A stretch of DNA of 64,000 nucleotides from NCBI RefSeq assembly GCF_019670125.1, contig NZ_AP023033.1, positions 3,683,501-3,747,500 on the forward strand, read 5' to 3'. Below are positions 2,516-37,674 of this stretch, one piece after another. Position 1 is the first letter of the stretch. Every line of letters starts with the position of its first letter. The notes beneath the pieces are model-generated. The model did no database searches. It saw nothing but the letters and a program-made list of their open reading frames with translations, and was not told the DNA's origin. Both the position numbers and the translations under genes were made by a program. The DNA comes from Agarivorans aestuarii. Lineage in GTDB: Bacteria; Pseudomonadota; Gammaproteobacteria; Enterobacterales; Celerinatantimonadaceae.

Positions 2516-2546
2516 TTGATTAACCAATGAGCAATTGGTTAACCTT
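2516..2546. promoter_or_regulatory. Paired GntR-type operator-like sites upstream of the FG-GAP lipoprotein
   Basis: Two 12-mers, TTGATTAACCAA (2516-2527, one mismatch to TTGGTNNACCAA) and TTGGTTAACCTT (2535-2546, two mismatches), together form a larger inverted repeat. They lie 76-106 bp upstream of the lipoprotein start. Confidence 0.5.
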
Positions 2547-2755
2547 TAAGGCAGGATCTATATCATATTTAATTGTTAATTATGCGATAGCCGTCAAAGT
2601 CTTTTATAGCAAACAGTTAGAGGGAGATTAGACAACATCAACTTAAACCTCCCCAAAAAAGTAAGTAACTTAAATAACAGACATAAAGAAAAAATTGCCG
2701 AAAAAAGCAGAGGAGCTAGGAGACACCCAGCAAAAGTTAATAACCAATATAACAA

Positions 2756-2767
2756 TTGGACTACCAA
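2756..2767. promoter_or_regulatory. GntR-type operator-like site
   Basis: TTGGACTACCAA differs from TTGGTNNACCAA at one position. It is 316 bp upstream of the lipoprotein start, immediately before the structured region at 2780-2841. Confidence 0.35.
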
Positions 2768-2819
2768 TAAAAGGCGCCTTAGGCCAAAGTGTTTACACTT
2801 TGTGGGCCTATCAGGAAAA

Positions 2820-2841
2820 GCAAGCAGCGCTTGCCTTTTTT
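2820..2841. terminator. Hairpin with T-tracts on both strands
   Basis: The stem GCAAGC/GCTTGC with a three-base loop is followed by CTTTTTT on the plus strand and by TTTT on the minus strand. It could end the GH50 transcript arriving from 3158, or a short plus-strand transcript starting nearby. Confidence 0.5.
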
Positions 2842-3157
2842 GCTGTCTAAGAATGGCAAAAATGGAACGAATGCCTAACTAGGCGAGCCCTAATAGGTTG
2901 CTGTATTAAAATACTTTATTGCAGCAAATAGGTTTTTGCTTAACCGCACATTGCGCAGAGCAATGCCGCAAGAGAAGATAACAACTGAATCCTTATACAA
3001 TCCCTCAGAAAAATTTTCCAAAAGAAAGGGCGCTGCATGCTGGAATTAATCAGTAAAACAGCACCCTTATGCTTTGACTAAAAAGACCTAGACCCACGTT
3101 TTGTAAACGCCTTGGATCGAAGCCCGCTTTTTACTTATAGGTACCTATCAAAGCGCG

Positions 3158-5431
3158 CTACTTTTTCGCCTTATTAAAACGGCGCTGATACATGCCGCCA
3201 TTTACCCGCTTCGCAGCATCAACCATTGGCTGATATGGTACATCGGTGATACCCACAAAACCCACATTGTAGTTTTCACCGTCAAACGAACGCCCAGTAA
3301 TCGGCGAGTCAATGTATTGGAACCAATGCGCCCCAACAAAGTATGGATTATCAATTACCGAGTTTAAGTAATCTTCGAACATCTCGCCGCGCTCGGTTTG
3401 GTCGTTAGCCGTCACCAAACCTGCGTGAAAGAAACCTTCTTTAACGCCAATATGAAACTCACCAATAATGCTTGGCATATCTACTTCGGCCAAAAACTTC
3501 CAAGGTTCTGGGTGTAGCCCTTCTTTGTAGTAGTTGTAACTTACAACATCCACATGTTTTGCTGCGGCTCTTACCACCTCTGGATTACAGCCCCAATCAG
3601 CAAATCGAGCTCCCAAATACAAGTGATTAGGTAATTGAGCCTTAAGCGACTCGTTTACCACTTTGAAGTATTCGCTGGCGTACAACTCTAATAACATGGA
3701 GTAGTCACTAAGCTGTGCTTCGTTATGGGCTAAATCACTAACGCCACCAGCTACAGCTTGCCAAGATTCAATCTTAGTCCCCCAAGCTTGGTTAAGCTGT
3801 TCTACAGTGCCGTACTTGTCTTTTAAGGCTTGAGTGAATACTGCCTTAGTTGGGCTCTCCTCATCGCTGCGACCTAGAGTATGGATCGCAATACCATAAT
3901 GGCCATTAATGGTGCCCATTCGGCCCCAGCTTTTCTCATTATCAATGAAAATACCCACACACCATGGTGAACCTTGCATTTCGGCTTTAACTTGGCTTAC
4001 GGTTGCTTCGGCGCGCTCTCTAAATACCGGGTCGAAAGGATCTGGCAGTGGCGCCCAAAAGTCATCGCCACTAGTCACTGTTTTAAAGTCACCAATAATC
4101 CAGCCATTGGCGAAATAAGGAATTTTATCGTTACAGTAAAATTCTGGAGCAGTCCAATTACCTAAACAAGAAAAGCCCCAGTTAAGCATGCGGTCCATGG
4201 TAACTTCACGCCACTTGCCCATGTAATCGGCGTCATCTTGACCGTACTTGCGCTGTAGATTTGCCGAGTAAAAACTAAAGATCTCGCCGCGATCAACTGG
4301 CCCTTCAAACAGTTCACGCATATAGCTGTAATGCTCAGCTAACGGGTCGTCGTAGCTAGGCAACCAATCGAAAAAGTCTCGGCGAGTTTGGTTAGCAACA
4401 TGGGCTGAATCAAAGGCTTCTTGGCAAATTTCGAGCTTTTCTTTAGAGTCTTCAGGTGTTACATCGTCATCGCTACGCGCAGCCACTTTTGAGTGGTCGT
4501 AATCAATACCGGTAATGGTAAATGAGTTTGCTAGGCGAATAATATCGAGGCCGGTAGCAAAGTATGGGTAGCCATCTGGGTCAACTAACGACCATTTTCC
4601 GTCGATTTTTTCGGTACGGAAAAAGCCAGTTGCCTCTAGCTGCGGGCCACCAGTGTAACCACTAAAGCGCGAACGCTGGGGCATAGCGCCTTGCTCTAAG
4701 GCTTTAAGCTCTTTGGCTGTAACCGCCAATAACTCTTCTTCAGAATGTACTTTTTCCGCGGTTTCTACTAAAGCATTTTGACCAAACTTATCTAAACAAC
4801 CTTTAAGAAAATCGGGATTACATTCCGGGGTGAAAATCACTCTAAAGTTATCTAACACCAACTGATGATCAATCAAAGTACCGTGAATGCTTAATTCAAT
4901 TTTGGCAACGGCACTTAAATCGATGTTCATCTCGCCCCACATCCACGTTGCATAGTGAAATGGCGTATCCCAGGCTGCAGGGTTAGAGCGAAAACCCGAT
5001 TCATAGTTAAGCCCACCCTTTAAAAACTCACCCTTAAGCTCGTTTAAATAAGTTTTGCAAGAGCCACCCGCCACGTTAATGCTGCGGCTATGCATTTGCC
5101 CTTGTTTGTCGAAGATATTGATGAAAATCTGTGTTGAACGACGACCTAAGTTTGTGACGTCAAATGCAAAACTAAAGTTAGGAAGCGCACTCCAATCAAA
5201 AGGCTGCTCAGGCTCGATAAAAATTGAGGTGTAAAAGTTTTCTTTGCTATGTGTAGTAACTTTTAAGGCTTGCGAACCAGTAGTAATGCCGTTGCCTTCA
5301 CTTACCAATTCTGCGTCCACGTTGCTAAAACTAAAAGCCTTAGGAATTTGCTCAGCAAAATCATAAATCAAAATTGATTGCTCATGCTCAGATATAGTTT
5401 TAGCTGAGTCAGCCCTTAAGCGCGTTTCCAT
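3158..5431 (-). CDS. GH50 beta-agarase without signal peptide
   Basis: This 757-residue protein belongs to glycoside hydrolase family 50, which hydrolyses beta-1,4 bonds of agarose or neoagaro-oligosaccharides. It has one N-terminal CBM-like beta-sandwich (about residues 20-200) and a C-terminal TIM barrel. The family motifs are present: FIDNEKSWG with acid/base Glu499, LGARFADWG near 606, and IIGEFH with nucleophile Glu658. The N-terminus (METRLRADSAKT) is hydrophilic, with no signal sequence or lipobox, and the other three GH50 enzymes here carry two sandwich domains. An AGGATA ribosome-binding site precedes the ATG. It is probably a cytoplasmic exo-enzyme that trims imported oligosaccharides to neoagarobiose. 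Family assignment is firm; mode of action and location are inferred. Confidence 0.93.
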   Translation of the reverse strand: METRLRADSAKTISEHEQSILIYDFAEQIPKAFSFSNVDAELVSEGNGITTGSQALKVTTHSKENFYTSIFIEPEQPFDWSALPNFSFAFDVTNLGRRSTQIFINIFDKQGQMHSRSINVAGGSCKTYLNELKGEFLKGGLNYESGFRSNPAAWDTPFHYATWMWGEMNIDLSAVAKIELSIHGTLIDHQLVLDNFRVIFTPECNPDFLKGCLDKFGQNALVETAEKVHSEEELLAVTAKELKALEQGAMPQRSRFSGYTGGPQLEATGFFRTEKIDGKWSLVDPDGYPYFATGLDIIRLANSFTITGIDYDHSKVAARSDDDVTPEDSKEKLEICQEAFDSAHVANQTRRDFFDWLPSYDDPLAEHYSYMRELFEGPVDRGEIFSFYSANLQRKYGQDDADYMGKWREVTMDRMLNWGFSCLGNWTAPEFYCNDKIPYFANGWIIGDFKTVTSGDDFWAPLPDPFDPVFRERAEATVSQVKAEMQGSPWCVGIFIDNEKSWGRMGTINGHYGIAIHTLGRSDEESPTKAVFTQALKDKYGTVEQLNQAWGTKIESWQAVAGGVSDLAHNEAQLSDYSMLLELYASEYFKVVNESLKAQLPNHLYLGARFADWGCNPEVVRAAAKHVDVVSYNYYKEGLHPEPWKFLAEVDMPSIIGEFHIGVKEGFFHAGLVTANDQTERGEMFEDYLNSVIDNPYFVGAHWFQYIDSPITGRSFDGENYNVGFVGITDVPYQPMVDAAKRVNGGMYQRRFNKAKK

Positions 5432-5622
5432 TATGTATCCTCAAATGATTAGCGTCCTGATAGCCATGGCAGAGTCTAGGCAATATAACTAAGCCATAGA
5501 GAAAACTTAACTAACAAACCTTAAGTATTAAACTTTCTAGCTGCCAAGCGACGCGTTAAAACAGAAAAATATCTAAGGGTAATAATGACTTCAGCCAAAC
5601 AAATGTCAACCAATTCAAATTA

Positions 5623-5634
5623 TTGGAAAACCAA
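5623..5634. promoter_or_regulatory. GntR-type operator-like site upstream of cytoplasmic GH50
   Basis: TTGGAAAACCAA is symmetric and differs from TTGGTNNACCAA at position 5 only. A half-site (GTCAACCAA) lies about 10 bp to the left. It is 192 bp upstream of the GH50 start. Confidence 0.4.
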
Positions 5635-5913: not shown

Positions 5914-6378
<465 letters not shown>

Positions 6379-6405
6379 TTACTTCCTACTATTTAAGTTT
6401 ATTTG

Positions 6406-7884
6406 TCATACTTTAAAACGTTTGATATTTACTACAAGCTCATTGTTGTGTTCTTCGAGTGAGATCACTTGTCCGTTCACATTTTTTGCATTATTTGCAA
6501 TAGAACTAGCCAGGGTATTTAAGGTGGTAACATTTTCAGCAATGGTCTGAGTAACGCTGTTTTGTTGTTTAGCAGCTACCGCAACGTGCGTGTTCATTTG
6601 GTTAATGTTCTCAATGTGCTCGCAGATATCTTGTAAGGCTTGTGAAATAGACCCCGCCGCATTGTCCACCTCTTTACTCGATTGCAAACTTGCCCCCATA
6701 GAGCTAGCCGCATTTGAGGCATTGTCTTGCAGCGCGGCAACAATAGATTCAATTTCTTGGGTAGACTCTTGAGTTTTCTGGGCCAATGCTCTTACTTCAT
6801 CGGCAACCACCGCAAACCCTCGCCCTTGCTCACCAGCTCGAGCTGCTTCAATTGCCGCGTTTAAGGCAAGTAGGTTGGTTTGTTCGGCGATGTTACGAAT
6901 AACTTCCACTACAGAGCCAATCGCTGAGCTTGAATCAATTAACTTATCGATACGTGAAGAGGTATCGGTAATGCTTTGCGATAAGCGGGTAATGAGTTGA
7001 CTGTTTTCGCGCACCAACTCTACACCAAGCAAGGTTTGCTCGCGGGCCGTTTGCGACTTCTCGGCGGTTTGCTCAGCGTTTACAAACACCTCTTCTGCAG
7101 AGGCACTCATTTCTTGCAGTGAAGTAGCCGCCTGCTCCATCTGATCTTGTTGCGATAAAGAGTCACGCTGAGATTCGCTAGAAGATGAACTTAACGAATG
7201 AGACACCGAGCTTACCTGCTCACTCACCGAACGAATGCTATTAAGCAGGTGCGATAGGTTGTCCATCAGTAAGTTGAAGTTGCTACTAAGTACACCAATC
7301 TCGTTATCGTTGTTCACTGGAATACGTCGGGTAAGGTCCCCGTCACCAGTGGCAATTTGGTGCAAAGAGTTTGCCACGTCGTTGATTGGAATTACCACCA
7401 GCTTACGCACGTAGAAAAACACGGCTGCAACCACAACCGCTAATACCAATATAATGTTGAGCATTACATTGGTTATTTCGCTGTTTAGCGTGGCAATCAC
7501 ACTGCTATCATCAAATTGCAGCTTTAAGGTACCAATAAAGTCCTCGCCACGTTGCAGCTCAATTAGATTGAAGTCTTGCTTTTGATTGGCAATGCTGGCC
7601 TGAGAAATAGCTTTACCACGCTGGTCCACTACTTCCACTGCATTTAGGATCGGGGATTGAACCAAAGCATCTACAATGGCTTGCGCTTGTTCAAAATCAT
7701 AAACAAACACCGCTTCTATTAATGATGCTTTGGCCATCTCGGTAATGGCTTGTTGCTCTACTAAGTAGCCTTCAGCCAATTTGCTTTTGGTATTTAAGTA
7801 GCTAACGCCACCGCCTAATAACAGGCCTAGCAAACCAAATAGCAGTAATATAATAATTAGGGATTTACTCAAACTTGCTTTCAC
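6406..7884 (-). CDS. Methyl-accepting chemotaxis protein
   Basis: This 492-residue transmembrane chemoreceptor has TM1 at about 8-29, a short periplasmic sensor of roughly 105 residues, TM2 at about 139-158, a HAMP domain (about 160-215) and a long cytoplasmic coiled coil. The conserved hairpin tip includes [20 protein letters not shown] at about 334-353, the site contacting CheA/CheW. The C-terminus (IKRFKV) has no CheR-docking pentapeptide. The start is GTG at 7882-7884. The upstream gene, 18 bp away, encodes a periplasmic solute-binding protein with no permease beside it, so the two may form a ligand-binding/receptor pair. Being embedded in the agarase block suggests chemotaxis to agar breakdown products. 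The family is certain; the ligand is unknown. Confidence 0.93.
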
Positions 7885-7902
7885 GTTTAGTCTCGCTTAT
7901 GT

Positions 7903-8754
7903 CTATCTTTCTTGAATGTCCAACCACAACTCTTCGCGGTGCAAAGGTGCGTCTGCGGGCAGTAAAGGATTATCTATTTTTATTATTCGGCGCTCGGTAA
8001 GGCGCGCTGTTTCAAAGGTTTTTGAGATAAGGGGAGATTGATAAAATAGCTGGTTATAGCTGCCATCAGCAATGGCGGTTTCTAAGCCATCGTTAATCGC
8101 ATCATATAAGGCGCGATTCTTAGGATTAACGTAGAGATACATCGCCATTGGGTAGACCAACAGAATGTCATCTTCTACGGCAAGGTTTACTTCCTTTTGG
8201 GTTTCTACCACTTCCCAGGCTTCGTGCACGGCTAAAGGTAGGTAGTCAAAACGCCCGCCATCTACCATGTAGAATAAGCTTTGCGCTTTAACCGGTTTAA
8301 CTACTTCTAGTCCGGCATTTTCTAGGATTTCAGTATCGCCCCAAAAACGGCCTAAGCCTGCTTTTAAGCGCTTTAACGAGGCTAAACTAGACACGCCTTC
8401 AAAGGCTGCTTGATTACTTTTTTCAATAACAAAAACGCGGTGGCCCAATAATCCTTTAAAAATAGGGATCTTGATGGCTTTAAGCTGTTGCTGCATTGAG
8501 TTTGACGCACCAGCCCAAATCACACTCACCTGATCTTGTTTTACTTCTTCAACTAATCGAGCCTCACTGTAATAGGTATCGATGGGTTGAATTTTTTGCG
8601 AATAGTTACTTTTTTCAAATGCTAATTTAATCAAATCAACGACTAAGCGGTCGCGTTCGCCCAAAACCATGGGCGTTGTTACCTGTGCTAGAACGCTATT
8701 AGATAAGGTTAAACCGCAAAACAAAAAGAAGCTGGCAATGGTTATTTTTTTCAT
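7903..8754 (-). CDS. Periplasmic solute-binding protein (SBP_bac_3-like)
   Basis: The 283-residue protein begins with a clear signal peptide (about 1-23, ending in SVLA) and resembles family 3 extracellular solute-binding proteins. It shows the two-lobe pattern with a VSVIWAGAS segment near residue 76 and a C-terminal lobe ending in a predicted helix (NDGLETAIADGSYNQLF). No ABC permease or ATPase gene is adjacent. It is 18 bp upstream of the chemoreceptor and 34 bp downstream of the P-loop kinase, so it is co-transcribed with them. It could deliver a ligand to the chemoreceptor rather than to a transporter. The substrate cannot be read from the sequence; amino acids are the commonest ligands of the family, but context favours an agar-derived compound. 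Confidence 0.75.
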   Translation of the reverse strand: MKKITIASFFLFCGLTLSNSVLAQVTTPMVLGERDRLVVDLIKLAFEKSNYSQKIQPIDTYYSEARLVEEVKQDQVSVIWAGASNSMQQQLKAIKIPIFKGLLGHRVFVIEKSNQAAFEGVSSLASLKRLKAGLGRFWGDTEILENAGLEVVKPVKAQSLFYMVDGGRFDYLPLAVHEAWEVVETQKEVNLAVEDDILLVYPMAMYLYVNPKNRALYDAINDGLETAIADGSYNQLFYQSPLISKTFETARLTERRIIKIDNPLLPADAPLHREELWLDIQER

Positions 8755-8788
8755 ACTTTTTCTCTTACCAAAACGCTATCAATTGCTG

Positions 8789-9190
8789 TTAAAAACCTTG
8801 GTGGAATACCACGCTATTTTTTAAGTTAATAATCTGTTTAAGCACCACATCTTCTGGCGCGTCACGTTTGTATTCTTCGCTATTTTGATTTTCCATCACC
8901 AAGGTGAATACTTTGTATTCATGCAGGTTGGCGGCTTCAAGGTAAAAATCTAAGTCACTAGATTTAGAGAAGGAGTTAGTCACGGCGATGCTGTTAACGC
9001 CTTTTTCCATTAACTCAGCAACAGAGGCACGACAATACTCATCGGCATGCGGCTTAAGTTCTTCATTCCACTTGTTTTGACCATACTGGGCATAATAATC
9101 CCAGCAGGACACCACGTCTTTAGTGATGGTTTTTGCAAACTCGGTTTTACCGCTGCCAAATGACCCGCGGACAATATATAGATACTTCAT
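8789..9190 (-). CDS. Small P-loop kinase, N4BP2/polynucleotide-kinase-like
   Basis: The protein has 133 residues from the ATG at 9190, which is preceded by AGGAAG; a longer reading from 9229 lacks such a site and runs into the terminator hairpin. A Walker A motif GSFGSGKT (residues 9-16) follows the first strand. The rest matches the N4BP2/T4 Pnk-like kinase layout: an aromatic DYY segment, NEELKPHADEYCRASV, then a strand corresponding to the usual VVDNTN (here IAVTNSFS) and Tyr-x-x-Ala (YLEAANLHEYKV). In the usual motif an Asp precedes Asn-Thr; here the residues are Val-Thr-Asn-Ser. Such proteins phosphorylate nucleic acids or small molecules; the substrate here is unknown. It lies within the agarase block between a GH50 gene and the solute-binding protein. 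Confidence 0.65.
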   Translation of the reverse strand: MKYLYIVRGSFGSGKTEFAKTITKDVVSCWDYYAQYGQNKWNEELKPHADEYCRASVAELMEKGVNSIAVTNSFSKSSDLDFYLEAANLHEYKVFTLVMENQNSEEYKRDAPEDVVLKQIINLKNSVVFHQGF

Positions 9191-9212
9191 ATTTCTTCCT
9201 GAAAATAAAAAG

Positions 9213-9247
9213 GCCGCCTCACAATACAACTTAATTTACGAGGCGGC
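9213..9247 (-). terminator. Terminator after the GlyGly-CTERM GH50 gene
   Basis: The stem GCCGCCTC/GAGGCGGC with a 19-base loop is followed on the minus strand by CTTTTTATTTTC. It sits between the GH50 stop and the ribosome-binding site of the P-loop kinase, so downstream genes probably receive reduced read-through. Confidence 0.65.
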
Positions 9248-9254
9248 ACAGTCC

Positions 9255-12242
9255 TTACACTTTACGACGTCTTAGTAAAAATACGCCGGCCAAACCTACT
9301 AGTGATAACCAACCTGCGCTACCGCCACCGCCAGTTACGCCACCCGTTGGTGGTGTTGGCGGATCAATTGGAGGATCTACTGGCTCACCTGGATCTGGCG
9401 CTTCTGGGCCAGAGTGGCTAACACCAATATTGGTACCGGTATACAACTCACCCGCTCTCGAAGCAGCTTCAGTAGCATTGCTTAAGCTAGAGCAGTCAGT
9501 GCCGTACATGCCACAGTTAAACTCACGCGCAGCATCTGTCATCAATGTATATGGCGTGTCAGTATTACTAACAAAACCAACGTTGTAGTTTTCGCCATCC
9601 CATGCACGACCCGTTAATGGTGAATCGATGTATTGGAACCAATGCGCACCTACAAAGTTTTTATGGGCATTTACTGATTCGTAGAAGCTAACCATTTTGT
9701 CTGCACGATCTTGTTGCGAGGTGGCATTTACTACACCTTCTGCAAACGAACCGCTATCAAGCGCACCGAAGTGGAACTCACCAATAATTACTGGCTTATC
9801 AATGGCTTCGATTTGACTTAAGGCATCGGCATCCCAATCGGCAGCAGCAATGCTGTCTTTGTAGATGTTGTAGCTCATTACATCAACAACAGCCGCAGCA
9901 GCACTTACTACTTCAGGAGTACGTCCCCAATCTGCAAAGCGAGAGCCCAAGTACAAGTGGTTTGGTAACTCAGCTTTTAATGCCGTGTTTACGGTGTTGA
10001 AGTATTGGAAAGCAAACTGCCAAGCAAGGAACTGCATATCAGCTTCCATGCCAGCCACATAAGCTAACTCTTGCGCTGGGCGCATCGCATCCCAAGACGC
10101 ATAATCGGTTCCCCAGGCTGCGTTTAGGTCAGCAATGCCACCGGTATAACGCTGGTTCTCTAGGAACCAAATAAAGCTATTTTTGGCAGGGCTAGTTGTT
10201 GCATCAGTGCCGTCGGTATTGAACACCGCTAGCGTTTGCGCATAACGAGAGCCTTCAACATCAGTGACATTGCCCCAGCTCATTTCGTTATCAACAAAAA
10301 TACCCACTAAGTACTCTTCGTTGCCTTCAACCTGAGCTTTGATCTCTGCAGCCATTGTGGCGGCATTAGTAGCAAAATTAGCATCCCACGGATCAGGAAG
10401 TGGTCCCCAGTAGCCGCTGCCAATTTGTTTAACTGGAAGACGATCGGCACCAGAGGTTGACCAACCATTTGCCACGTAAGGAACATCACCGTTTGCATAC
10501 AAGGCTGGATCGGTCCAGTTACCTAAGGTGTTAAAGCCCCAGTCTTTCATACGCTTAACAGTAATGTCTCGCCATACGTCTTCGCTAGCGTGGCGGGTAA
10601 TTAAGTTATTAGCGTAAAAACTTACAGCTTGGCCTTGAGAAACAGGTCCACTATGCACAGGACCATAGTTTTCATTTACATAATCACTTGGAATTTCTGT
10701 AAACATCGACTGACGAAGTGCAGACTCAGATTCGGCATCACTCGACACACCGGTCATGGTGTAAGTATCTTGCAGACGAATGTTATCAACACCGGTTGAG
10801 AAGAACGCATTACCAGCAGGGTCTACCAATTGCCAGTTACCATCAGCGTCTTTACAAGCGTTAAACGAGGCAGGCGTAGCTAGTACACAGTCTGTAGCTG
10901 GCGACGAATCTGGGTTACCACCGTACATATTGCGGTTGGTTAACTCACCCAAAGCAGCCATTTCCGGATCACTTAACTTAGCTAACTCTTCTTTGCTGGC
11001 AACTTTACCTGCATAAGTGACGAAGTTGTTTTGCCCCATAGCATCGGTCATTTCTGCATAGGCTGATTCGTGGTTAAGGTCTTTAATGACCCGCATGTTA
11101 TCAAACACAAGTGTTTGGCTAGTCTCACCACTGGCTAATTCGCCAATGAAGTAACGAATCGCGGTAATTTGAGATTTGTCTAAGGCAACAAAATCACCCC
11201 AGCCGTTTTGAGCGCTCATTGGGTCAGCTGGAATATCACGTAAACCTAAAGTTGACACACGCTCATTTTGAGTAAGCAATGAAGGATTGTCATTTAAGCT
11301 GGTGTAAATGGTTTTCGATTCGCCAGCTTTAACCAATACGCCGCGAGTCGCAGTTTCACCTTGGCTATTTACATCTTCTATACGTGAGTACAACCAGATA
11401 TTACTATCGCTAGTATTTGAAACGTCAACGGCGACTGCGGTTTGCTCACCTAGTTCAGCCCAATTCCAAGCACCTGCAAACACTAAAGCGTTCCAACCTG
11501 CAGTAAACTCGGCAGCCATTGCTGCAGCGCCTTTAGTCACAATCTCAGTAGTAGTTGAAACGTTTACCCCACCATCAGGTCGTAAGTAATCTGGAATTGT
11601 TTCAAAGTCTTCGATTTGCGCTAAGGTGGCTACAGGCGCGGTTTGTGTATTCACTGCACCATCACTTGGTGGCGGAGTGACTGCTTCGCCATCAACCATG
11701 ATGTTGTCAAAGTACAATACTTGAGGATCGTTTTCAGAGAGCATGAACTGCACACCGATAACTTTATCTTTACTAAAGTTTTCGCCATGAGTTTGGAACT
11801 CGTTCCCGCCATTTAAGTTAAAGCTAAAGGTCTGCGTGGTATTAGCTGAAACCCTAAAGTAGTCCAATGAGGTTTGAGACTCATCTACCCAATCAGGAAG
11901 AATATCACTATCAATTAGCTTGATGGCAAAGGTAACGTCAGTGTCGTTAGGGTTAACAACATCTACTGACATAACATCTTCAGCACCCCAGTTCCAACTT
12001 CCCCAGTTCCAAACAACCATTGGTTTGAAAGCCGCGTCAAAAGACGCTTTAATCGATTGATTACCATCAGTAGCTTGTTCAGTTGAAACTTCAGAAGTGG
12101 CATCTCCAGACACTTCCAAAAATTCAGCATTGTTTTCAGAGCTGCTGTAGTCGGCTTCCTCAAAAGAGGTGACTAAGGTAGCAGCACTTAATGGCAATGC
12201 TAAGCTTGCAGCGATTGCTGCAGATAAAAATTTAATCTTCAT
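9255..12242 (-). CDS. Secreted GH50 beta-agarase with GlyGly-CTERM anchor
   Basis: The ATG at 12240-12242, after AGGAAAT, begins a 995-residue precursor with a Sec signal peptide (MKIKFLSAAIAASLALPLSA); an in-frame ATG 36 bases upstream would bury that signal. Two CBM-like beta-sandwiches (about 25-185 and 205-390) precede the GH50 barrel. Catalytic motifs are FVDNEMSWG with Glu653 as acid/base and IIGEFHFG with Glu822 as nucleophile. After a Pro-rich linker the C-terminus has Gly-Gly-Gly-Gly-Ser-Ala-Gly-Trp, a hydrophobic helix and Arg-Arg-Arg-Lys-Val, the GlyGly-CTERM sorting signal recognised by rhombosortase. It should therefore be exported, cleaved and surface-attached or released by type II secretion. 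It also has extra cysteines (CVLATPASFNAC; CGMYGTDC) that its paralogues lack. Confidence 0.93.
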   Translation of the reverse strand: MKIKFLSAAIAASLALPLSAATLVTSFEEADYSSSENNAEFLEVSGDATSEVSTEQATDGNQSIKASFDAAFKPMVVWNWGSWNWGAEDVMSVDVVNPNDTDVTFAIKLIDSDILPDWVDESQTSLDYFRVSANTTQTFSFNLNGGNEFQTHGENFSKDKVIGVQFMLSENDPQVLYFDNIMVDGEAVTPPPSDGAVNTQTAPVATLAQIEDFETIPDYLRPDGGVNVSTTTEIVTKGAAAMAAEFTAGWNALVFAGAWNWAELGEQTAVAVDVSNTSDSNIWLYSRIEDVNSQGETATRGVLVKAGESKTIYTSLNDNPSLLTQNERVSTLGLRDIPADPMSAQNGWGDFVALDKSQITAIRYFIGELASGETSQTLVFDNMRVIKDLNHESAYAEMTDAMGQNNFVTYAGKVASKEELAKLSDPEMAALGELTNRNMYGGNPDSSPATDCVLATPASFNACKDADGNWQLVDPAGNAFFSTGVDNIRLQDTYTMTGVSSDAESESALRQSMFTEIPSDYVNENYGPVHSGPVSQGQAVSFYANNLITRHASEDVWRDITVKRMKDWGFNTLGNWTDPALYANGDVPYVANGWSTSGADRLPVKQIGSGYWGPLPDPWDANFATNAATMAAEIKAQVEGNEEYLVGIFVDNEMSWGNVTDVEGSRYAQTLAVFNTDGTDATTSPAKNSFIWFLENQRYTGGIADLNAAWGTDYASWDAMRPAQELAYVAGMEADMQFLAWQFAFQYFNTVNTALKAELPNHLYLGSRFADWGRTPEVVSAAAAVVDVMSYNIYKDSIAAADWDADALSQIEAIDKPVIIGEFHFGALDSGSFAEGVVNATSQQDRADKMVSFYESVNAHKNFVGAHWFQYIDSPLTGRAWDGENYNVGFVSNTDTPYTLMTDAAREFNCGMYGTDCSSLSNATEAASRAGELYTGTNIGVSHSGPEAPDPGEPVDPPIDPPTPPTGGVTGGGGSAGWLSLVGLAGVFLLRRRKV

Positions 12243-12274
12243 ATTTCCTGCCCATTCCTTGTACCTAGCAGATT

Positions 12275-12300: not shown

Positions 12301-12316
12301 TAAATCGTTGTTGCGA

Positions 12317-28461: not shown

Positions 28462-28470
28462 TGATATTTC

Positions 28471-29967: not shown

Positions 29968-30001
29968 TACGGCATTTATACCGACAAAGCGGTTAGATAG
30001 C

Positions 30002-30017
30002 CGTGACTATAATCACA
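30002..30017. promoter_or_regulatory. CRP-like site in the divergent catabolic promoter
   Basis: CGTGACTATAATCACA matches nine of ten specified bases of TGTGA-N6-TCACA and is flanked by A-rich sequence. It directly adjoins the operator at 30020. Confidence 0.6.
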
Positions 30018-30019
30018 AA

Positions 30020-30031
30020 ATGGTAAACCAA
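30020..30031. promoter_or_regulatory. GntR-type operator-like site beside CRP site
   Basis: ATGGTAAACCAA has one mismatch (first base) to TTGGTNNACCAA. Confidence 0.55.
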
Positions 30032-30197: not shown

Positions 30198-30209
30198 TTG
30201 GTTGACCAA
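30198..30209. promoter_or_regulatory. Perfect GntR-type operator before kdgK
   Basis: TTGGTTGACCAA fits TTGGTNNACCAA exactly, and the symmetry extends to TTTTGGTTGACCAAAA. It is 76 bp upstream of the kinase ATG. Confidence 0.7.
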
Positions 30210-30284: not shown

Positions 30285-31214
30285 ATGTTTAGCGAGATAT
30301 TAAGTTTTGGCGAACCCATGTATGAATTCAGCCAAATAAAGCAGTCTAAAGCCATGGAGCCAGATTTTTTAAGCGGCTTTGGTGGCGATGTTTCTAACTT
30401 CGCCATTGCAGCAGCACGTCAAGGCGCCAACGTAGGCATGATCACCCACTTAGGGGACGACGAATTTGGTGAGCAATTTAGAGCGCTGTGGAAACGTGAA
30501 TCTGTAGCAAGTGATTTAGTAGTAAGTAACGCGAGTGCACACACGGGCGTCTATTTTATTACTCATAATGAAGAAGGGCATCACTTTTCATTCCTAAGAA
30601 AAGGCTCTGCAGCCAGCCTTATTAGTAAGCAGCAACTTCCTGTGGAAGCGATAGCAAATGCTAAGCTGCTACATACTACTGCAATTACCCAAGCCATTAG
30701 TGACACCAGCTGTGACGCAGTTTTTGCCGCCATTGAGCTGGCGCGTAAAACCGATACCTTGGTCTCTTACGATACTAACCTACGCTTAAAACTGTGGTCG
30801 CTTAATCGTGCCAAAGCCATCATCAATGAAACCATTAGCCAAGTAGACATTTGCTTCCCTAGCATTGATGAAGCACAACTACTTACCGGCCTTACACATG
30901 CCGATGAAATTATCGATCATTACTTACAATTAGGCGCCAAAATTGTTGTGCTAAAACAGGGCTCAGAAGGCGCAACAGTGGCTAACCAACACGAGCGATT
31001 TAGCATTAAACCCCACAAGGTAAGCACTGTAGACGCAACAGCCGCGGGTGACTCATTTGCCGGTTCATTCTGTACCCATTATGTACGCGGCGCAGAACTA
31101 CAAGAATGCCTTAAATACGCTAATGCTACCGCTTCTATCACCATCACTGGCTATGGCGCTGTAGCGCCGCTACCTACTCTTGCTCAAGTAGAGCAACGTA
31201 TCGGCCTTAGTTAA
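30285..31214 (+). CDS. kdgK: 2-keto-3-deoxygluconate kinase
   Basis: The 309-residue protein is a PfkB-family sugar kinase of the KDG kinase type, converting 2-keto-3-deoxy-D-gluconate to KDPG with ATP. Signatures are FGGDVSNFAIAAARQG near residue 34 and the anion-hole motif DATAAGDSF at 250-258, with Asp256 as catalytic base; KDG kinases usually have DTTAAGDSF. It is cytoplasmic. It opens a plus-strand operon with the KDPG aldolase (28 bp gap) and cycloisomerase genes, so it serves the lower part of the anhydrogalactose route. AGGAC before the ATG is the ribosome-binding site. Specificity for 2-keto-3-deoxygalactonate instead of the gluco epimer cannot be excluded. Confidence 0.9.
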   Translation: MFSEILSFGEPMYEFSQIKQSKAMEPDFLSGFGGDVSNFAIAAARQGANVGMITHLGDDEFGEQFRALWKRESVASDLVVSNASAHTGVYFITHNEEGHHFSFLRKGSAASLISKQQLPVEAIANAKLLHTTAITQAISDTSCDAVFAAIELARKTDTLVSYDTNLRLKLWSLNRAKAIINETISQVDICFPSIDEAQLLTGLTHADEIIDHYLQLGAKIVVLKQGSEGATVANQHERFSIKPHKVSTVDATAAGDSFAGSFCTHYVRGAELQECLKYANATASITITGYGAVAPLPTLAQVEQRIGLS

Positions 31215-31242
31215 TTTTACTTTTAATATTACGGACAAAAAC

Positions 31243-31872
31243 ATGGAAAATTTAAACTCTCTGCTGAAGCAATTTAAAGTAATTCCAGTAATTGCTATCG
31301 ATAAAGCCAGCGACATCGTGCCACTAGGCGAACAGTTAAGTAAAAATGGTTTGCCAGTTGCCGAAATCACTTTCCGCTCAGACGCCGCAGCAGAGGCAAT
31401 TCGCCTACTTCGCGAAGCACAGCCAGATATGCTAATTGGAGCAGGAACCATCTTAAACGAAGAACAAGTAATAGCTGCTAAAGAGGCCGGAGCTAGCTTT
31501 ATTGTTTCTCCAGGTTTAAACCCAAATACCGTTAAAGCCTGTCAGAAGCACAACATTGCTATTATTCCTGGCGTTAATAATCCGTCAACGGTAGAGCAAG
31601 CATTAGAGCTAGGTTTAGATACAGTGAAGTTCTTCCCAGCAGAAGCCTCTGGCGGCATTGCCATGCTTAAGTCATTACTTGGTCCATATACCAACATTCA
31701 AGTAATGCCTACTGGTGGCATCAATCAAAACAACATTGAAAAATACTTGGCATTACCCGGCGTTTTAGCCTGTGGTGGCACTTGGATGGTAGATAAATCA
31801 CTTATTAATAAGGGCGAATGGGATACTATCGGTCAATTAGTGAAAGACATTGTGGCGCAACTTGCCGAGTAA
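31243..31872 (+). CDS. eda: KDPG/KHG aldolase
   Basis: The 209-residue class I aldolase cleaves 2-keto-3-deoxy-6-phosphogluconate to pyruvate and glyceraldehyde-3-phosphate. The Schiff-base lysine is Lys129 in DTVKFFPAE, and Glu41 and Arg45 in EITFRS complete the site; all three sit four residues before their E. coli Eda counterparts. [11 protein letters not shown] and the phosphate-binding [10 protein letters not shown] are also present. Length is normal. It is directly after kdgK and 10 bp before the cycloisomerase start. Another eda copy for central metabolism may exist elsewhere in the genome, so this may be the pathway-specific one. Confidence 0.93.
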
Positions 31873-31882
31873 GAGAACAAAC

Positions 31883-32974
31883 ATGAATACAGCAATTAAA
31901 TCAGTTACAGCGCGTTTGTTTAAAATTCCTTTAGCGGAGATTTTATCGGACGCCAAACACGGCGATCACGACCACTTTGAGCTAGTAACCACCACCATTA
32001 CTTTAGAAGACGGCAGTGAAGGTACCGGTTATACCTATACCGGCGGCAAAGGTGGCTATGCCATTAAAGCAATGGTTGAGCACGATTTAGCACCGGCTCT
32101 TATCGGTAAAGATGCCAGCCAAATCGACGAAATTTACGACTTTATGGAGTGGCATATTCACTATGTAGGCCGTGGTGGTATCGCTTCTTTTGCCATATCT
32201 TCGGTAGATATTGCCCTTTGGGATCTAAAAGGTAAGCGTTTAAATCAACCTTTATGGAAAATGGCTGGTGCTAAAAACTCTAGCTGTAAAGCGTATTGCG
32301 GCGGTATCGATTTACAATTTACCACCGAAAAGCTATTGGCCAATATTCAAGGTTACTTAGATAAGGGCTACAACGCGGTTAAAATCAAAATTGGTCGCGC
32401 CGATGCCAATGAAGATATTGCTCGTATTAAAGCGGTGCGTGAGCTAATTGGTAAAGACGTTACCTTTATGATCGATGCCAACTACTCATTAAGTGTTGAG
32501 CAAGCCATTGCTTTATCTAAAGCCGTAGAGCAATACGATATTACCTGGTTTGAAGAGCCAACCATTCCAGATGACTACCTAGGTTACGGCAAGATTGCCG
32601 ATGCCACTTCAATTCCTTTGGCTATGGGTGAAAACCTACATACCATTCACGAATTTGAATATGCCTTTGAGCGCGCCAAGCTTTCTTTTGTGCAACCCGA
32701 TGCTTCAAACTGTGGCGGTATTACTGGCTGGCTTAAAGCCGCCCGCTTAGCCGACCAACATGGCATTCCGGCATGTTCTCATGGCATGCAAGAATTACAT
32801 GTGAGCTTAGTGTCTTCTCAACCCAACTCTGGCTGGTTAGAAGTACATAGCTTCCCAATTGATGAATACACCAAGCGCCCATTGGTGGTTAAAGATCATC
32901 GTGCTGTAGCACCAGATACCCCAGGCGTGGGTGTCGAGTTTGACTGGGATAAGATTAAACCTTTCGAAGTGTAA
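31883..32974 (+). CDS. 3,6-anhydro-L-galactonate cycloisomerase
   Basis: The ATG at 31883 is used because a reading from 31850 would begin inside the aldolase gene; the product has 363 residues. It is an enolase-superfamily enzyme of the mandelate racemase/muconate lactonising type. Visible active-site residues are Lys167-x-Lys169 (VKIKIG), metal ligands Asp198 (MIDANY), Glu224 (WFEEP) and Glu250 (MGEN), and the His300/Asp273 dyad (CSHGMQE; QPDASN). In agarolytic bacteria the member linked to KDG kinase and KDPG aldolase opens the anhydro ring of 3,6-anhydro-L-galactonate to 2-keto-3-deoxy-L-galactonate (EC 5.5.1.25). The context makes this assignment likely; a galactonate or gluconate dehydratase is the main alternative. 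Confidence 0.88.
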
Positions 32975-33017: not shown

Positions 33018-33155
33018 TGCTTGTTTTATAGCTCCCCCCGCTTCAGCTTAGACTCTCTTCTGATCTGTTCTGCTCTGTTCTGTTCCCCTACTAACAACAA
33101 AAAAATCAATAAAACACCACAATTGATAACCAATACACACAAAAGATCAACCAAT

Positions 33156-33171
33156 GTCGATCTAGATCGAC
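33156..33171. promoter_or_regulatory. 16-bp perfect palindrome in the symporter promoter
   Basis: GTCGATCTAGATCGAC is perfectly self-complementary. It is framed by AACCAAT on the left and AATTGG on the right, giving a nested inverted repeat 62 bp upstream of the symporter gene. It may be a site for a different regulator. Confidence 0.4.
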
Positions 33172-33174
33172 AAA

Positions 33175-33186
33175 TTGGCTAACCAA
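33175..33186. promoter_or_regulatory. GntR-type operator-like site before the sugar symporter
   Basis: TTGGCTAACCAA has one mismatch to TTGGTNNACCAA and lies 47 bp upstream of the ATG. Confidence 0.5.
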
Positions 33187-33232: not shown

Positions 33233-34852
33233 ATGGACATAAAAACATGGAATGCTTACAAGTATGCGTTAATTGTGGCTATTGGCGGCTTTGTATTTGG
33301 CTTAGATGCCGCCATTATTTCCGGCACAGTGCGCTTTATCGCGTCGGAGTTTTCCCTCACTGATTTGCAAATTGGCACTGTAGTAGGCGCGCCAAGTTTA
33401 GGTGCAATTTTGGCCTTGCTAGTCGCCGGCAAAACTGCCGACGCCCTGGGCCGTAAAAAAACCCTCATAATTATTGCTGGTCTTTACGTTGTCTCAGCCT
33501 TGCTGTCAGCTTTAGCAACTAGCTTTATGATGTTAACCATGGCGCGCTTTATTGGCGGATTAGCCTTTAGCTCGCTTTCTTTAGCCTCTATGTACATTGG
33601 TGAAATAGCCCCCGCTAAACAGCGTGGCAAACTCGTCTCGGCGAATCAATTTAACATTGTGATTGGTTTATTAGCGGCTTACTTCATTAACTACTATTTA
33701 GTGCTGCATGTAAGCGAGAACTCCTTATTGTTTGCCCCCGATACCGTATGGCGAACCATGTTAGCTTCGGAGCTTATTCCCGCGGTGCTTTGGGTAATCT
33801 TACTTTGCCGCGTGCCAGAATCTCCTCGCTGGTTAATGATGAAAAACAAACAGGAACAAGCTAAAGAAGTACTGCTAAAACTGTTGCCAGAGCAACGCGC
33901 CGAAGAAGTACAGGCTGAGATTGAACAGAACCTAAAAGAACATCAGGACACCAGTAGCATTAACGAACAACTTAAGCTGTTGTTCTCGTCGCCAATGAAA
34001 ACCATTTTTGCGATTGGCTTTATCATGGCGGTTGTACAAGGCATAACCGGTATGAACGCGATTCTGTTTTATGCCCCCACAGTGTTCGAACAAATTGGTT
34101 TTGGCTTAAATGCCTCGTTCCAACAAGCTATCTACATTGGCATAACGAGTGTGGTATTCACGGTATTAGCGGTTTTCTTCATTGATAAAGTTGGCCGAAA
34201 ACCACTGCTTATCTTTGGGCTATTAGCGGTAGTACTAAGCCACGCAACTTGTTGGTACGGCTTTAGCAACGCCAGCTACAGCATTAATCAACAAACCATC
34301 GATAAACTAGAAGAGGTAATCGATACTACTCCACTTAAAGCCCAGCTAAATAGCCAATATGCTGATGATGTTAGCTTTAAGGAAATGCTAGCAACTAACT
34401 ATGATGCCGATACGCTGCGACTAAGCGAAGGGCATATTATTGAAGCCGCCATTTCGGTCAACCCAATTGTTATTTTAGTGGGCATTTTGGCCTTTATCGC
34501 GGCCTTTCACATTTCTATTGGGCCTATTATGTGGGTACTGTTTTCGGAGATTTTCCCTAACTCGGTGCGAAGCGTTGCGATCCCATTGTTTGCATTGGTC
34601 ACCAGTGTTGCCAGTTACTTAATCCAGCAGTTTTTCCCTTGGCAGCTAGCCAACCTAGGTGCAGCAAATACCTTCTTAATGTACTCAGTGTTTGGCTTAA
34701 TAGGCCTATTACTGCTGTGGCCACTGTTGCCAGAGACTAAGAATAAAACCATTGAGGAAATTGAAGATACGTTGGTAAACAAGCGCAACCAGCCAACCAC
34801 CAGCGCAGAAGTATCAGATAACCCGGTAGGCAGTAACGCACCTAGTGCATAA
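33233..34852 (+). CDS. MFS sugar:H+ symporter (sugar porter family)
   Basis: The 539-residue protein is a 12-TM sugar porter related to GalP/XylE. Family signatures are DALGRKKTL (about 70-78), RVPESPRWLM (about 193-202), DKVGRKPLL (318-326) and PETKNKTIEEIE near the C-terminus. Between TM9 and TM10 there is an extracytoplasmic loop of about 64 residues (345-408), longer than in E. coli GalP. AGAGGAAC precedes the ATG. The gene stands alone between two terminators, beside the GntR regulator and the anhydrogalactose dehydrogenase gene. It probably imports D-galactose or 3,6-anhydro-L-galactose released outside the cell; the substrate is not readable from sequence. Confidence 0.9.
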   Translation: MDIKTWNAYKYALIVAIGGFVFGLDAAIISGTVRFIASEFSLTDLQIGTVVGAPSLGAILALLVAGKTADALGRKKTLIIIAGLYVVSALLSALATSFMMLTMARFIGGLAFSSLSLASMYIGEIAPAKQRGKLVSANQFNIVIGLLAAYFINYYLVLHVSENSLLFAPDTVWRTMLASELIPAVLWVILLCRVPESPRWLMMKNKQEQAKEVLLKLLPEQRAEEVQAEIEQNLKEHQDTSSINEQLKLLFSSPMKTIFAIGFIMAVVQGITGMNAILFYAPTVFEQIGFGLNASFQQAIYIGITSVVFTVLAVFFIDKVGRKPLLIFGLLAVVLSHATCWYGFSNASYSINQQTIDKLEEVIDTTPLKAQLNSQYADDVSFKEMLATNYDADTLRLSEGHIIEAAISVNPIVILVGILAFIAAFHISIGPIMWVLFSEIFPNSVRSVAIPLFALVTSVASYLIQQFFPWQLANLGAANTFLMYSVFGLIGLLLLWPLLPETKNKTIEEIEDTLVNKRNQPTTSAEVSDNPVGSNAPSA

Positions 34853-35748: not shown

Positions 35749-35760
35749 TTGGTAAATCAA
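35749..35760. promoter_or_regulatory. GntR-type operator-like site before the GntR gene
   Basis: TTGGTAAATCAA has one mismatch to TTGGTNNACCAA, 44 bp upstream of the regulator start, suggesting autoregulation. Confidence 0.55.
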
Positions 35761-35947
35761 TTCAAGTAAGTTCTAGACCGAAGCCTGAATAGTAACGCCT
35801 TTTAGCGCGTATCGGTAGTCAACCACAACTACCGATGTCTCATTTTGATCTAAATTGTACGACTAATAATAAATCACGCCTTAAATACATGAAATTTAGA
35901 AAATATTCATTTACCAAATGAAATTCTACAAAATTGACAGAATAACT

Positions 35948-35998: not shown

Positions 35999-36010
35999 TT
36001 GGTTTACCAA
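35999..36010. promoter_or_regulatory. Perfect GntR-type operator before the anhydrogalactose dehydrogenase gene
   Basis: TTGGTTTACCAA fits TTGGTNNACCAA exactly; the symmetry extends to AAATTGGTTTACCAAATT. It is 39 bp upstream of the ATG, a position suited to repression. Confidence 0.7.
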
Positions 36011-36048
36011 ATTTGTTTTATCTCCACTGGGAATCTAAAGGAAGTTAG

Positions 36049-37497
36049 ATGAGCACAGTTACTCACAAAATGTTTATCAATGGTGAATGGTTAGAATCAG
36101 CTACCGGCAACACCATTGAAGTTGTAAATCCAAGTAACGAACAGTTGGTTGGCTATGCTCCGCAAGCGAGCCGTGAAGAAGCAGCTAATGCTTTACGCTC
36201 ATCAGAAGCGGCTCAAAAAGACTGGGCTAAATTACCGGCACAAAAACGTGCAGAACTAGTAGCAGCACTAGCAGACGAATTAGAAGCAGACGCTGAGCGT
36301 TACGCCGAAATGATTACCCAAGAACAAGGCAAACTGCTAAGTGATGCACGTGGCGAAGTAGCCGGTTCTGTTGGATTTTTGCGTTACGCTGCTGAATCAG
36401 CTCGCCGCATTGAAGGCGAGATAGTCACCAGCGAAAATCAAGACGAACAGATTTGGATCCAACGTGTGCCTTTTGGCGTAACCGTGGGCCTGCTAGCTTG
36501 GAACTACCCGCTAGCGCTTGCGGCACGCAAACTAGGTAACGCCTTAGTCACCGGCAATACCATGGTAGTAATGCCACCAGCAGACACTCCGCTCACGGTA
36601 TTAGAGTTCTCAAAACTAATCGCTAAAGTAGGTTTCCCTAAAGGCGTCGTAAACATTGTTTCAGGCCTAGGTGGTGAGGTAGGCGACGAGCTAGTGCGCA
36701 ACCCTATTACTAAGCTTGTGACTCTAACCGGCAGCTCGGAAGTAGGCTCTATTTTATACCGCTCTGCTTCAGAGAACATTACAGCACTAAACCTAGAGCT
36801 TGGCGGCAAAGCGCCGTTTATTGTACTAAACGACGCCAACATCGACGAAGTTGTTGAAATCGCGGTTAACTCTGGCTTTGGCAACTGTGGCCAAATTTGT
36901 ACGTCTAACGAGCGCATGTATATCCATAAAGCGATTTACGCAGAGTTTATGGATAAGTTCATCGCTAAAGTGAAGCAACTTAAGATAGGCGACCCAATGT
37001 TAGCTAGCACTGACGTTGGCCCTAAAGTTAATGCTCGCGAAGTGGAAAAACTGGTTGAGATGATCAGCAAAGCCAAGGCCGAAGGCGCAACCATCGCTTG
37101 TGGTGGCGGAAAACCAAGTGGCGAAGAGTTTGCCAATGGTTACTGGTTTGAACCTACCGTGGTTACCGATGTAAACAACCAAATGGACATCATGAAACAA
37201 GAAGTGTTTGGCCCAGTTGTAGCTGCAATGCCAATTGATAACCTAGAGCAAGCATTACAGTATGCCAACGACATCGACTTAGGTTTGTCTGGCTACGTAT
37301 ATACCAACGACATGCGCAAAATCATGCAAGTTGTTAACGAATTAGAGGTCGGCGAAATCTATGTTAATCGCCCGAATGGTGAGCTATTAAATGGCTTCCA
37401 TACAGGCTTTAAACGCAGTGGTATCGGCGGCGAAGATGGGAAATACGGCTTGGAGGGATACTTGCAGAAGAAAACCATTTACCTGAACTACCAGTAA
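36049..37497 (+). CDS. Aldehyde dehydrogenase, probable 3,6-anhydro-L-galactose dehydrogenase
   Basis: The 482-residue protein is an NAD(P)-dependent aldehyde dehydrogenase resembling AldA. Active-site residues are Asn152 (AWNYP), Glu250 (LELGGK) and Cys284 (GQICTSNER). It has normal family length and no signal peptide. In the agarolytic setting it should oxidise 3,6-anhydro-L-galactose to 3,6-anhydro-L-galactonate (EC 1.2.1.92), feeding the cycloisomerase. An odd feature is VVMPPADTP at about 173-181, where most aldehyde dehydrogenases have KPSE/KPAE; the conserved Lys, which helps bind the cofactor ribose or phosphate, is Met here. GGAAG precedes the ATG. Divergent from the GntR gene and bearing a perfect operator, it is clearly part of the pathway. 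Exact substrate is inferred. Confidence 0.88.
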   Translation: MSTVTHKMFINGEWLESATGNTIEVVNPSNEQLVGYAPQASREEAANALRSSEAAQKDWAKLPAQKRAELVAALADELEADAERYAEMITQEQGKLLSDARGEVAGSVGFLRYAAESARRIEGEIVTSENQDEQIWIQRVPFGVTVGLLAWNYPLALAARKLGNALVTGNTMVVMPPADTPLTVLEFSKLIAKVGFPKGVVNIVSGLGGEVGDELVRNPITKLVTLTGSSEVGSILYRSASENITALNLELGGKAPFIVLNDANIDEVVEIAVNSGFGNCGQICTSNERMYIHKAIYAEFMDKFIAKVKQLKIGDPMLASTDVGPKVNAREVEKLVEMISKAKAEGATIACGGGKPSGEEFANGYWFEPTVVTDVNNQMDIMKQEVFGPVVAAMPIDNLEQALQYANDIDLGLSGYVYTNDMRKIMQVVNELEVGEIYVNRPNGELLNGFHTGFKRSGIGGEDGKYGLEGYLQKKTIYLNYQ

Positions 37498-37532
37498 TCT
37501 TTTTTATTCCTTTTGACAATTGTTAGCACTTT

Positions 37533-37562
37533 GCCTTGGTAGTCATACCAAGGCCTTTTTTT
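37533..37562 (+). terminator. Terminator after the aldehyde dehydrogenase gene
   Basis: GCCTTGGTA/TACCAAGGC with a four-base loop is followed by C and TTTTTTT. Confidence 0.85.
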
Positions 37563-37662
37563 ATCTTCCCTTCCGAGAGCTTGCTCACCAACACTCCCCT
37601 TCTGCAAAACAAAAACAATAACTTGATCACACACCTTACAACAGGTTAACAATGAACATAAA

Positions 37663-37674
37663 TTGATCGACCAG
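37663..37674. promoter_or_regulatory. GntR-type operator-like site before GH16 agarase
   Basis: TTGATCGACCAG has two mismatches to TTGGTNNACCAA and lies 62 bp upstream of the ATG. A half-site, AGGTTAAC, is 14 bp to the left. Confidence 0.35.

Follow-up and report, generated by a model that had tools for sequence, protein, structure and literature searches.

What controls the agar-degradation genes of Agarivorans aestuarii, and how far does this control reach in the genome? We addressed this question in a stretch of 64,000 nucleotides (positions 3683501-3747500 of the single-contig genome of 4.69 Mb), called the window below, which carries agarases, transporters and sugar-breakdown enzymes together with the gene of a GntR/FCD-type regulator (34926-35705). 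A preliminary description of this DNA had proposed that one palindromic operator, of the kind used by UxuR and ExuR of Escherichia coli, recurs across the agar locus and is read by this regulator. That first observation is right, and stronger than originally stated. Our best explanation, which we hold to be very probable, is a dedicated agar regulator of the UxuR clade working on phased operators of UxuR type. Among the matches listed from the open-licence literature, none reports, for this group of bacteria, a regulator that controls agar breakdown. Positions are counted from the first letter of the window, negative values lying to its left.

An operator word shared by the agar locus and two unlinked genes of agarase type

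The operator word was found at all 19 coordinates initially listed for it, with the mismatch numbers given there. The listed sites are a selection: they represent two of the three perfect, eight of the 17 one-mismatch and nine of the 62 two-mismatch matches in the window, and the unlisted perfect match and nine unlisted one-mismatch matches are all in coding DNA. Matches with up to two mismatches number 82 in the window, versus 36.6 +/- 6.5 in shuffled sequences. The comparison of densities that had been proposed as a check clearly favoured the locus. Taking the agar locus as -3100 to 37735 (the left limit was chosen after a site at -2335 had been noticed), non-coding matches with at most one mismatch occupied 11 of 5105 positions, against 1 of 51383 non-coding positions in control DNA (20 stretches of 20 kb from the same genome), an enrichment of about 100-fold (Fisher p 4e-11). 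Genes and non-coding masks came from a simple longest-open-reading-frame (ORF) rule instead of the annotation. At up to two mismatches, the non-coding counts were 23 for the locus and 37 for the control. The main score matrix was partly trained on the loci that were then scanned, and both the enrichment and the phasing described below were redone with independent or cross-trained matrices. A matrix built from 41 sites of other genomes, none from this one, gave 15 non-coding matches above a score of 12 in the locus and none in the rest of the window or in the control, the corresponding coding matches being 3, 2 and 18. Nine other palindromes obtained by permuting the half-site had 0-1 non-coding matches in the locus, against 11 for the real word.

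When transcription units were delimited by ORF direction, a site was found for each of the 12 units, the site at 37663 being the weakest case; the preliminary description had stated "nearly every" unit. Most sites had been placed 13-80 bp upstream of a start codon; this applies to 12 of the 19 (12 to 76 bp), the other seven being 85 to 315 bp away. An A at position 5, proposed to mark most sites before GH50 genes and perhaps a class of lower affinity, is present in the four listed GH50-promoter sites, but also at 2756, which does not precede such a gene. This A is kept at the same promoters in other Agarivorans loci where the site was found (two agarase promoters), and position 5 is canonical in Aliagarivorans and in a more distant genome (G163).

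The preliminary description had one operator type across the locus, as we find, but missed its unlinked targets. Perfect matches number 27 in the whole genome, and inspection of the ORF context of all of them placed 23 in coding DNA and four outside it, all four at agar-linked promoters: 30198, 35999, -2335 (about 2.3 kb left of the window) and 2136005. The site at -2335 lies about 15 bp before a small PQ-loop/SemiSWEET-like gene (-2308 to -2030; L001:17192-17470), possibly a sugar transporter of the agar regulon. The site at 2136005, 1.5 Mb away, is one of seven non-coding sites with up to two mismatches in 300 bp, and this cluster precedes a protein of 1339 amino acids (aa) with CBM6, porphyranase and BPA_C domains (a porphyranase/agarase, GH86 type); that porphyranase domain has no second match in the genome. 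GH50, GH86 and GH117 are used here as the family labels that we presume to correspond to the Pfam domains found. Among the six GH16 genes, a single one resembles beta-agarases of known structure (best E 8e-79), and a non-coding site with one mismatch precedes its start by 20 bp. The other five match laminarinases or beta-glucanases, and the 3.5 kb scanned at each contain no non-coding site with fewer than two mismatches; at two of these loci (L098 and L099) a one-mismatch or better site occurs in coding DNA. We take this contrast as a test of the specificity of the regulon idea. The operator is thus present at two unlinked promoters of the same pathway, those of the porphyranase/agarase and of the GH16 agarase.

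Neighbouring operators are mostly in helical phase

The sites described initially do exist, but their helical phasing had been missed. Spacings between non-coding neighbours peak at 20-22, 31-33, 41-42, 53 and 62-64 bp, with almost none below 19 bp, and the step of 20-22 bp is the commonest in several genera. We call a pair in phase if its spacing is within 1.5 bp of a whole helical turn, for which 31% is expected. At spacings of 12-70 bp, 18 of 22 pairs were in phase in the window set joined with the two unlinked promoters (R 0.82, p 4e-7) and 38 of 48 in relatives (R 0.67, p 5e-10), p-values that treat pairs as independent; pooled, 56 of the 70 close pairs were in phase. Both the matrix and the phasing sets leave out the near-identical Agarivorans loci G034 and L010, Vibrio sp. 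qd031, and the Aliagarivorans loci L014-L018 except as represented by G137; a locus of Vibrio sp. CK2-1 (L016), nested in the stretch G083, was counted once, which gives 164 sites and the 48 and 70 pairs above.

The pattern withstood several controls. None of 5000 jittered sets with sites moved by up to 8 bp, and none of 2000 further jittered sets, was as good as the observed ones; 40 dinucleotide shuffles yielded at most 2 pairs, and control DNA 26 sites and 1 pair. A matrix trained on relatives only placed 21 of 26 pairs in phase in the window set, and one trained on the window set only placed 37 of 45 in relatives. Restricting the count to adjacent pairs left p 9e-6 (window set, N=16) and 5e-8 (relatives, N=41). 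The clearest array stands directly before the agarase gene GH50d (Table 1), with steps of 21, 21, 21 and 42 bp.

Two known arrangements invite comparison. In the passages of PMC8012715 on E. coli NanR bound to (GGTATA)3, several dimers of a GntR/FCD repressor likewise bind one operator cooperatively, but they occupy direct repeats with a step of about half a turn, whereas the palindromes here are separated by at least two whole turns (about 21, 32, 42, 53 and 63 bp). Passages of Suvorova et al. (2015, PMC4494728) describe extra boxes near the palindromes of GntR-family operators, read as possible sites for extra subunits; such half-boxes lie at 7-12 nt from the centre of the site, while our neighbours are palindromic matches, most frequent at 20-22 bp and never closer than 14 bp. 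Because positions -20/-21 served there as the control for extra boxes, arrays with a 21-bp step are suggested not to be general in the family.

A UxuR-type operator and a regulator apart from UxuR

The operator had been likened to the palindrome of both UxuR and ExuR, and the likeness holds for UxuR only. According to passages of PMC4494728, UxuR sites have a 2-nt spacer and ExuR sites one of 3 nt. The window set has 15 sites of the form TTGGT-N2-ACCAA, with the 2-nt spacer, against 0-3 for other spacers from 0 to 7 nt and none for the 3-nt spacer; relatives have 51 sites with the 2-nt spacer versus 2-10 for the others. When the agar-trained matrix was applied to E. coli, it found two sites in the uxuA promoter region (17.6 and 17.0), two strong ones in that of uxuR (12.5 and 16.9) and one weak match in the exuR promoter (8.8), and no match above 4 in the uxaC-exuT intergenic region.

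The regulator has Pfam GntR (67.0 bits) and FCD (76.6 bits) domains, both above cut-off, and thus belongs to the FadR subfamily of the GntR family. Its predicted model (pLDDT 76) matches NanR, VanR and DhdR with probability 1.00, at query TM-scores of only 0.38-0.49 across the 50 listed matches. The best NCBIfam model is UxuR (210.5 bits against a cut-off of 442), followed by ExuR; the score is below both cut-offs, so that the protein does not class as a UxuR equivalog. It is 98% identical in Agarivorans sp. Toyoura001, and its nearest other match in the genome of A. aestuarii is 30% identical. As the preliminary description had it, this is the one FadR/FCD regulator of the locus, a relative of UxuR, with a site in its own promoter (35749). 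The arginines of the recognition helix, presumed DNA contacts by analogy with FadR, are common to the regulator and UxuR.

In a tree of 33 sequences, 15 agar-type regulators (the label denotes identity above 60%) group in a single clade, supported at 100/100 and separate from 16 others; UxuA is encoded within 3.7 kb at 13 of the 16 other-clade loci, and the regulator is outside this UxuA-linked clade. Eleven near-duplicate regulator sequences and L022, which has no usable ORF, were left out of the tree. A recruitment from hexuronate control, as had been suggested, fits the tree, but its direction is our reading, since the tree is rooted only at its midpoint. The regulator is thus like UxuR of E. 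coli in its GntR helix-turn-helix and FCD domains, the 2-nt-spacer palindrome, the site in its own promoter and a UxuB-type dehydrogenase as neighbour. Unlike UxuR, it belongs to a separate clade, with no more than 45% identity to UxuA-linked relatives (BLAST), agar genes replace uxuA, and many sites per locus stand in phased groups. ExuR is of the same FadR/FCD subfamily and of similar length, with sites that have the 3-nt spacer in the passages of PMC4494728. For UxuR itself, a passage of PMC12842492 gives fructuronate or glucuronate as the effector.

Regulator and operator in other genomes

In other genera, too, the operator word stands at the promoters of these genes where an ortholog of the regulator is encoded nearby, although not at every locus searched, and the gene order UxuB-like/alcohol dehydrogenase (ADH)/Ldh2 is kept in G163, G082, G064, G151, G075, G137, G034 and L017. 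Across 197 genomes of the order, an agar-type regulator (>60% identity) was found in 14 and the agarase domain PF17992 in 16, with both in 12 (Fisher p 3e-14, a statistic that ignores kinship). A genome of the same genus, G009, has no regulator, no PF17992, no cycloisomerase (E <= 1e-20) and no UxuB-like match (E <= 1e-40).

A different setting was found in G151 (L110-L111). Here the regulator (77% identical) is divergent from the same dehydrogenase triple, and on its other side are a KduI gene (403.7 bits, cut-off 250) and genes of a tripartite ATP-independent periplasmic (TRAP) transporter, with operator matches in front. The genome lacks a PF17992 match, its cycloisomerase relative reaches only 31% identity, and the system is perhaps a scavenger of sugar acids.

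Two more observations concern regulator copies elsewhere. Vibrio ulleungensis, Vibrio sp. qd031 and two Aliagarivorans species each have two agar-clade regulators, 77-81% and 68-72% identical to that of the window (L011/L020, L012/L021, L014/L018 and L015/L017; about 24 kb between the copies in V. ulleungensis), possibly reflecting a split of duties. A record of the enterobacterium Leclercia adecarboxylata (LR590464.1, 1-16922; L022) contains an anhydrogalactose-pathway-like cluster with a cycloisomerase (77%), UxuB-like, Zn-ADH and Ldh2 pieces, a regulator match (49%) and three operator matches above 7; several of its genes look broken in the record.

Proposed mechanism and its alternatives

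We propose that the regulator would be a dedicated agar repressor, a UxuR-clade protein of the GntR/FadR type that kept the DNA word WTTGGTNNACCAAW while it moved to a new pathway. Its dimers would occupy one or more copies of the word before every transcription unit of the locus and before the two unlinked agarase-type genes (GH86 type and GH16). Sites up to about 70 bp apart, being usually whole turns from each other, would place the dimers on one face of the helix; since neighbouring sites share that face, contact between the dimers would be possible and binding could become cooperative, so that weak sites would act jointly and the switch would be sharper. The array would then be released by a sugar acid that arises as an intermediate when anhydrogalactose is broken down. 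Binding of the operators by this very protein is highly likely, and control by repression nearly as much so; cooperativity is probable, and the class of effector somewhat favoured.

Regarding the effector itself, passages of PMC5943477 give the breakdown of 3,6-anhydro-L-galactose (L-AHG) in Pseudoalteromonas atlantica T6c and Paraglaciecola hydrolytica as anhydrogalactonate, 2-keto-3-deoxy-L-galactonate, 2,5-diketo-3-deoxy-L-galactonate and 2-keto-3-deoxygluconate (KDG). The locus has enzymes of matching families, with the dehydrogenase, cycloisomerase and 5-dehydrogenase steps and the KDG kinase in common; unlike here, the main text of that paper does not mention GntR and its passages give no regulator or operator of agar genes. 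The UxuB-like enzyme is of the fructuronate reductase type, below the cut-off of that model (536.9 vs 603), and the diketo acid would for this reason be its likely substrate. Our first choice, a tentative one, is 2,5-diketo-3-deoxy-L-galactonate, followed by KDG or 2-keto-3-deoxygalactonate. KduI makes a 2,5-diketo-3-deoxy-gluconate. Given this product and the presumed UxuB-like substrate, the type of metabolite common to the agar setting and that of G151 would be a 2,5-diketo-3-deoxy-hexonate, a link drawn from one genome, which is a slim basis. A wider idea, which we consider doubtful, is that a one-sided phased array of repressor dimers on weak sites reads 2,5-diketo-3-deoxy-hexonates, and that regulator and UxuB-like dehydrogenase moved jointly from hexuronate to red-algal sugar metabolism as a sensor-enzyme module. 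Such a phased one-sided architecture was not met for this family in the open-licence literature consulted.

Several results weigh against the proposed mechanism. Fourteen of the 70 close pairs are out of phase, and the phasing is not convincing at spacings above 130 bp (window, N=14, p 0.41; relatives, N=66, p 0.06; pooled, N=80, p 0.04 with R only 0.20). Four genomes with PF17992 have no regulator, and eight agarase loci taken from them have no site above 8.1. Among 20 agarase loci from regulator-bearing genomes, 11 have a non-coding match above 6.5 (8 of these above 16) and nine have none in the stretch scanned, and six unlinked agarase loci in G082, G064 and G098 have none above 7.5. The regulator-less PF17992 genomes and the siteless loci imply that the regulator is neither universal nor the only agarase control. 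Finally, three Vibrio loci (CK2-1, ulleungensis and qd031) lack a non-coding site with at most one mismatch within 20 kb; a wider 40 kb of CK2-1 (G083) has two such sites, and ulleungensis has weaker matches. Looping between distant sites was also considered, as spacings of 157, 178, 221 and 250 bp look like whole turns, and was dropped because the phasing test fails beyond 130 bp.

The alternative that survives best keeps the same regulator and sites but has the dimers bind independently, the phasing arising from a DNA face shared with the polymerase, from phased bending or from old local duplications. Phasing fades beyond 70-130 bp, and the pattern could also come from a constraint by the polymerase face; loci of the other clade, mostly linked to UxuA, tend to phasing as well, though less strongly (15 pairs, p 0.03, among which orthologous 34-bp spacings recur). 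Yet the promoter arrays of GH50d and of the MFS (major facilitator superfamily) gene revealed no tandem repeat matching the distance between sites, and the near absence of spacings below 19 bp, with 20-22 bp the commonest, is as for dimers packed side by side. We regard independent binding as unlikely. That the regulator activates, or acts both ways, is improbable: although seven of the 19 listed sites are 85-315 bp upstream of the nearest start, the other 12 are close to the start codon, both UxuR and ExuR carry repressor annotations in E. coli, and two sites overlap -35-like boxes, overlaps that carry no statistical weight because the promoter scan gave fewer promoter-like matches (13) than shuffles did (32). 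A reading of the palindrome by another protein is very improbable, even though a LacI-family regulator (22105-23139) is encoded in the same locus, behind an agarase gene, a further point against our proposal. No match to the LacI protein was found in the G163, G082, G064, G151, G075 and Vibrio stretches, yet operator matches persist there; moreover, the same word is found in the uxuA and uxuR promoter regions of E. coli, and the regulator has the recognition-helix arginines of UxuR. Chance or base composition can be dismissed. Genome-wide, and mostly in coding DNA, a reversed control does occur nearly as often as the loose pattern (128 vs 141), but the 100-fold non-coding enrichment, the permuted palindromes and the other-genomes matrix refute it.

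Organisation of the locus

The features are collected in Table 1. Two further palindromes, at 18603 (one mismatch) and 18820 (perfect), 217 bp apart, are within the GH117-type coding sequence and may be either chance matches or downstream operators. Positions 6406-8754 encode a solute-binding-like protein and a chemotaxis receptor; since the receptor shares its gene run with agarases, a porin and a permease, chemotaxis may be under agar control as well. Behind the weak operator at the right end, positions 37736-39097 encode a 453-aa protein that carries a ricin-type lectin domain at its C-terminus; no Pfam family matches its N-terminal part.

Table 1. Operators and genes of the agar locus (window positions; GH50 and GH117 are presumed labels)
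Feature	Position	Strand	Remarks
Operators 2516, 2535, 2756	2516..2767		before FG-GAP/Big2 lipoprotein-like gene
Agarase, GH50 type (GH50a)	3158..5431	-	
Operators 5602 (weak) and 5623	5602..5634		21 bp between; 5623 is 191 bp before GH50a start
LacY, LamB, two agarase-type genes, hypothetical, solute-binding protein, methyl-accepting chemotaxis protein, YhcH	5914..18007	-	one direction; solute-binding match below cut-off
Operators 18019, 18060, 18113, 18145, 18351	18019..18362		LacY/GH117-type divergent promoter
GH43/32-type protein (probably GH117) and GH2	18415..22052	+	
LacI-family regulator	22105..23139	-	behind GH50d gene
Agarase GH50d	23178..26111	-	Agarase_CBM and Glyco_hydro_42; start probably GTG 26111, from signal peptide and ribosome site
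Operator array 26129, 26150, 26171, 26192, 26234	26129..26245		directly before GH50d start; scores 7.7 to 14.1
Ldh2, Zn-ADH and UxuB-like dehydrogenases	26423..29943	-	
Operators 29956 and 30020	29956..30031		64 bp between; before dehydrogenase operon
Perfect operator	30198..30209		before kinase-aldolase-cycloisomerase; overlaps promoter-like -35 box
KDG-type kinase, 2-keto-3-deoxy-6-phosphogluconate-type aldolase, enolase-superfamily protein	30285..32974	+	family matches; the last a putative anhydrogalactonate cycloisomerase-like protein
Operators 33122, 33143, 33175	33122..33186		before MFS gene; steps 21, 32 bp; scores 8.7, 7.6, 16.6
Sugar porter, MFS	33233..34852	+	
UxuR-type GntR/FCD regulator, 259 aa	34926..35705	-	Pfam GntR and FCD
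Operator, regulator's own promoter	35749..35760		1 mismatch, score 15.2; overlaps promoter-like -35 box, - strand
Weaker operator	35906..35917		2 mismatches, score 8.8; divergent promoter of regulator and aldehyde dehydrogenase
Perfect operator	35999..36010		score 19.6; 38 bp before aldehyde dehydrogenase start
Aldehyde dehydrogenase	36049..37497	+	Pfam Aldedh; probable 3,6-anhydrogalactose dehydrogenase, from the pathway in passages of PMC5943477
Weak candidate operator	37663..37674		2 mismatches, score 11.5; before ricin-lectin-domain gene; also in G034

Implications

With one regulator, a defined operator, targets reaching unlinked agarases and a guess at the inducer, the agar genes of A. 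aestuarii offer a directly testable system. The phasing of neighbouring sites is newly found here and the operator architecture merits a test at the bench, the phased arrays providing a clean genetic test of cooperativity. For the family, the case shows a regulator keeping its DNA word while the pathway changes, with new targets gaining many weak phased sites.

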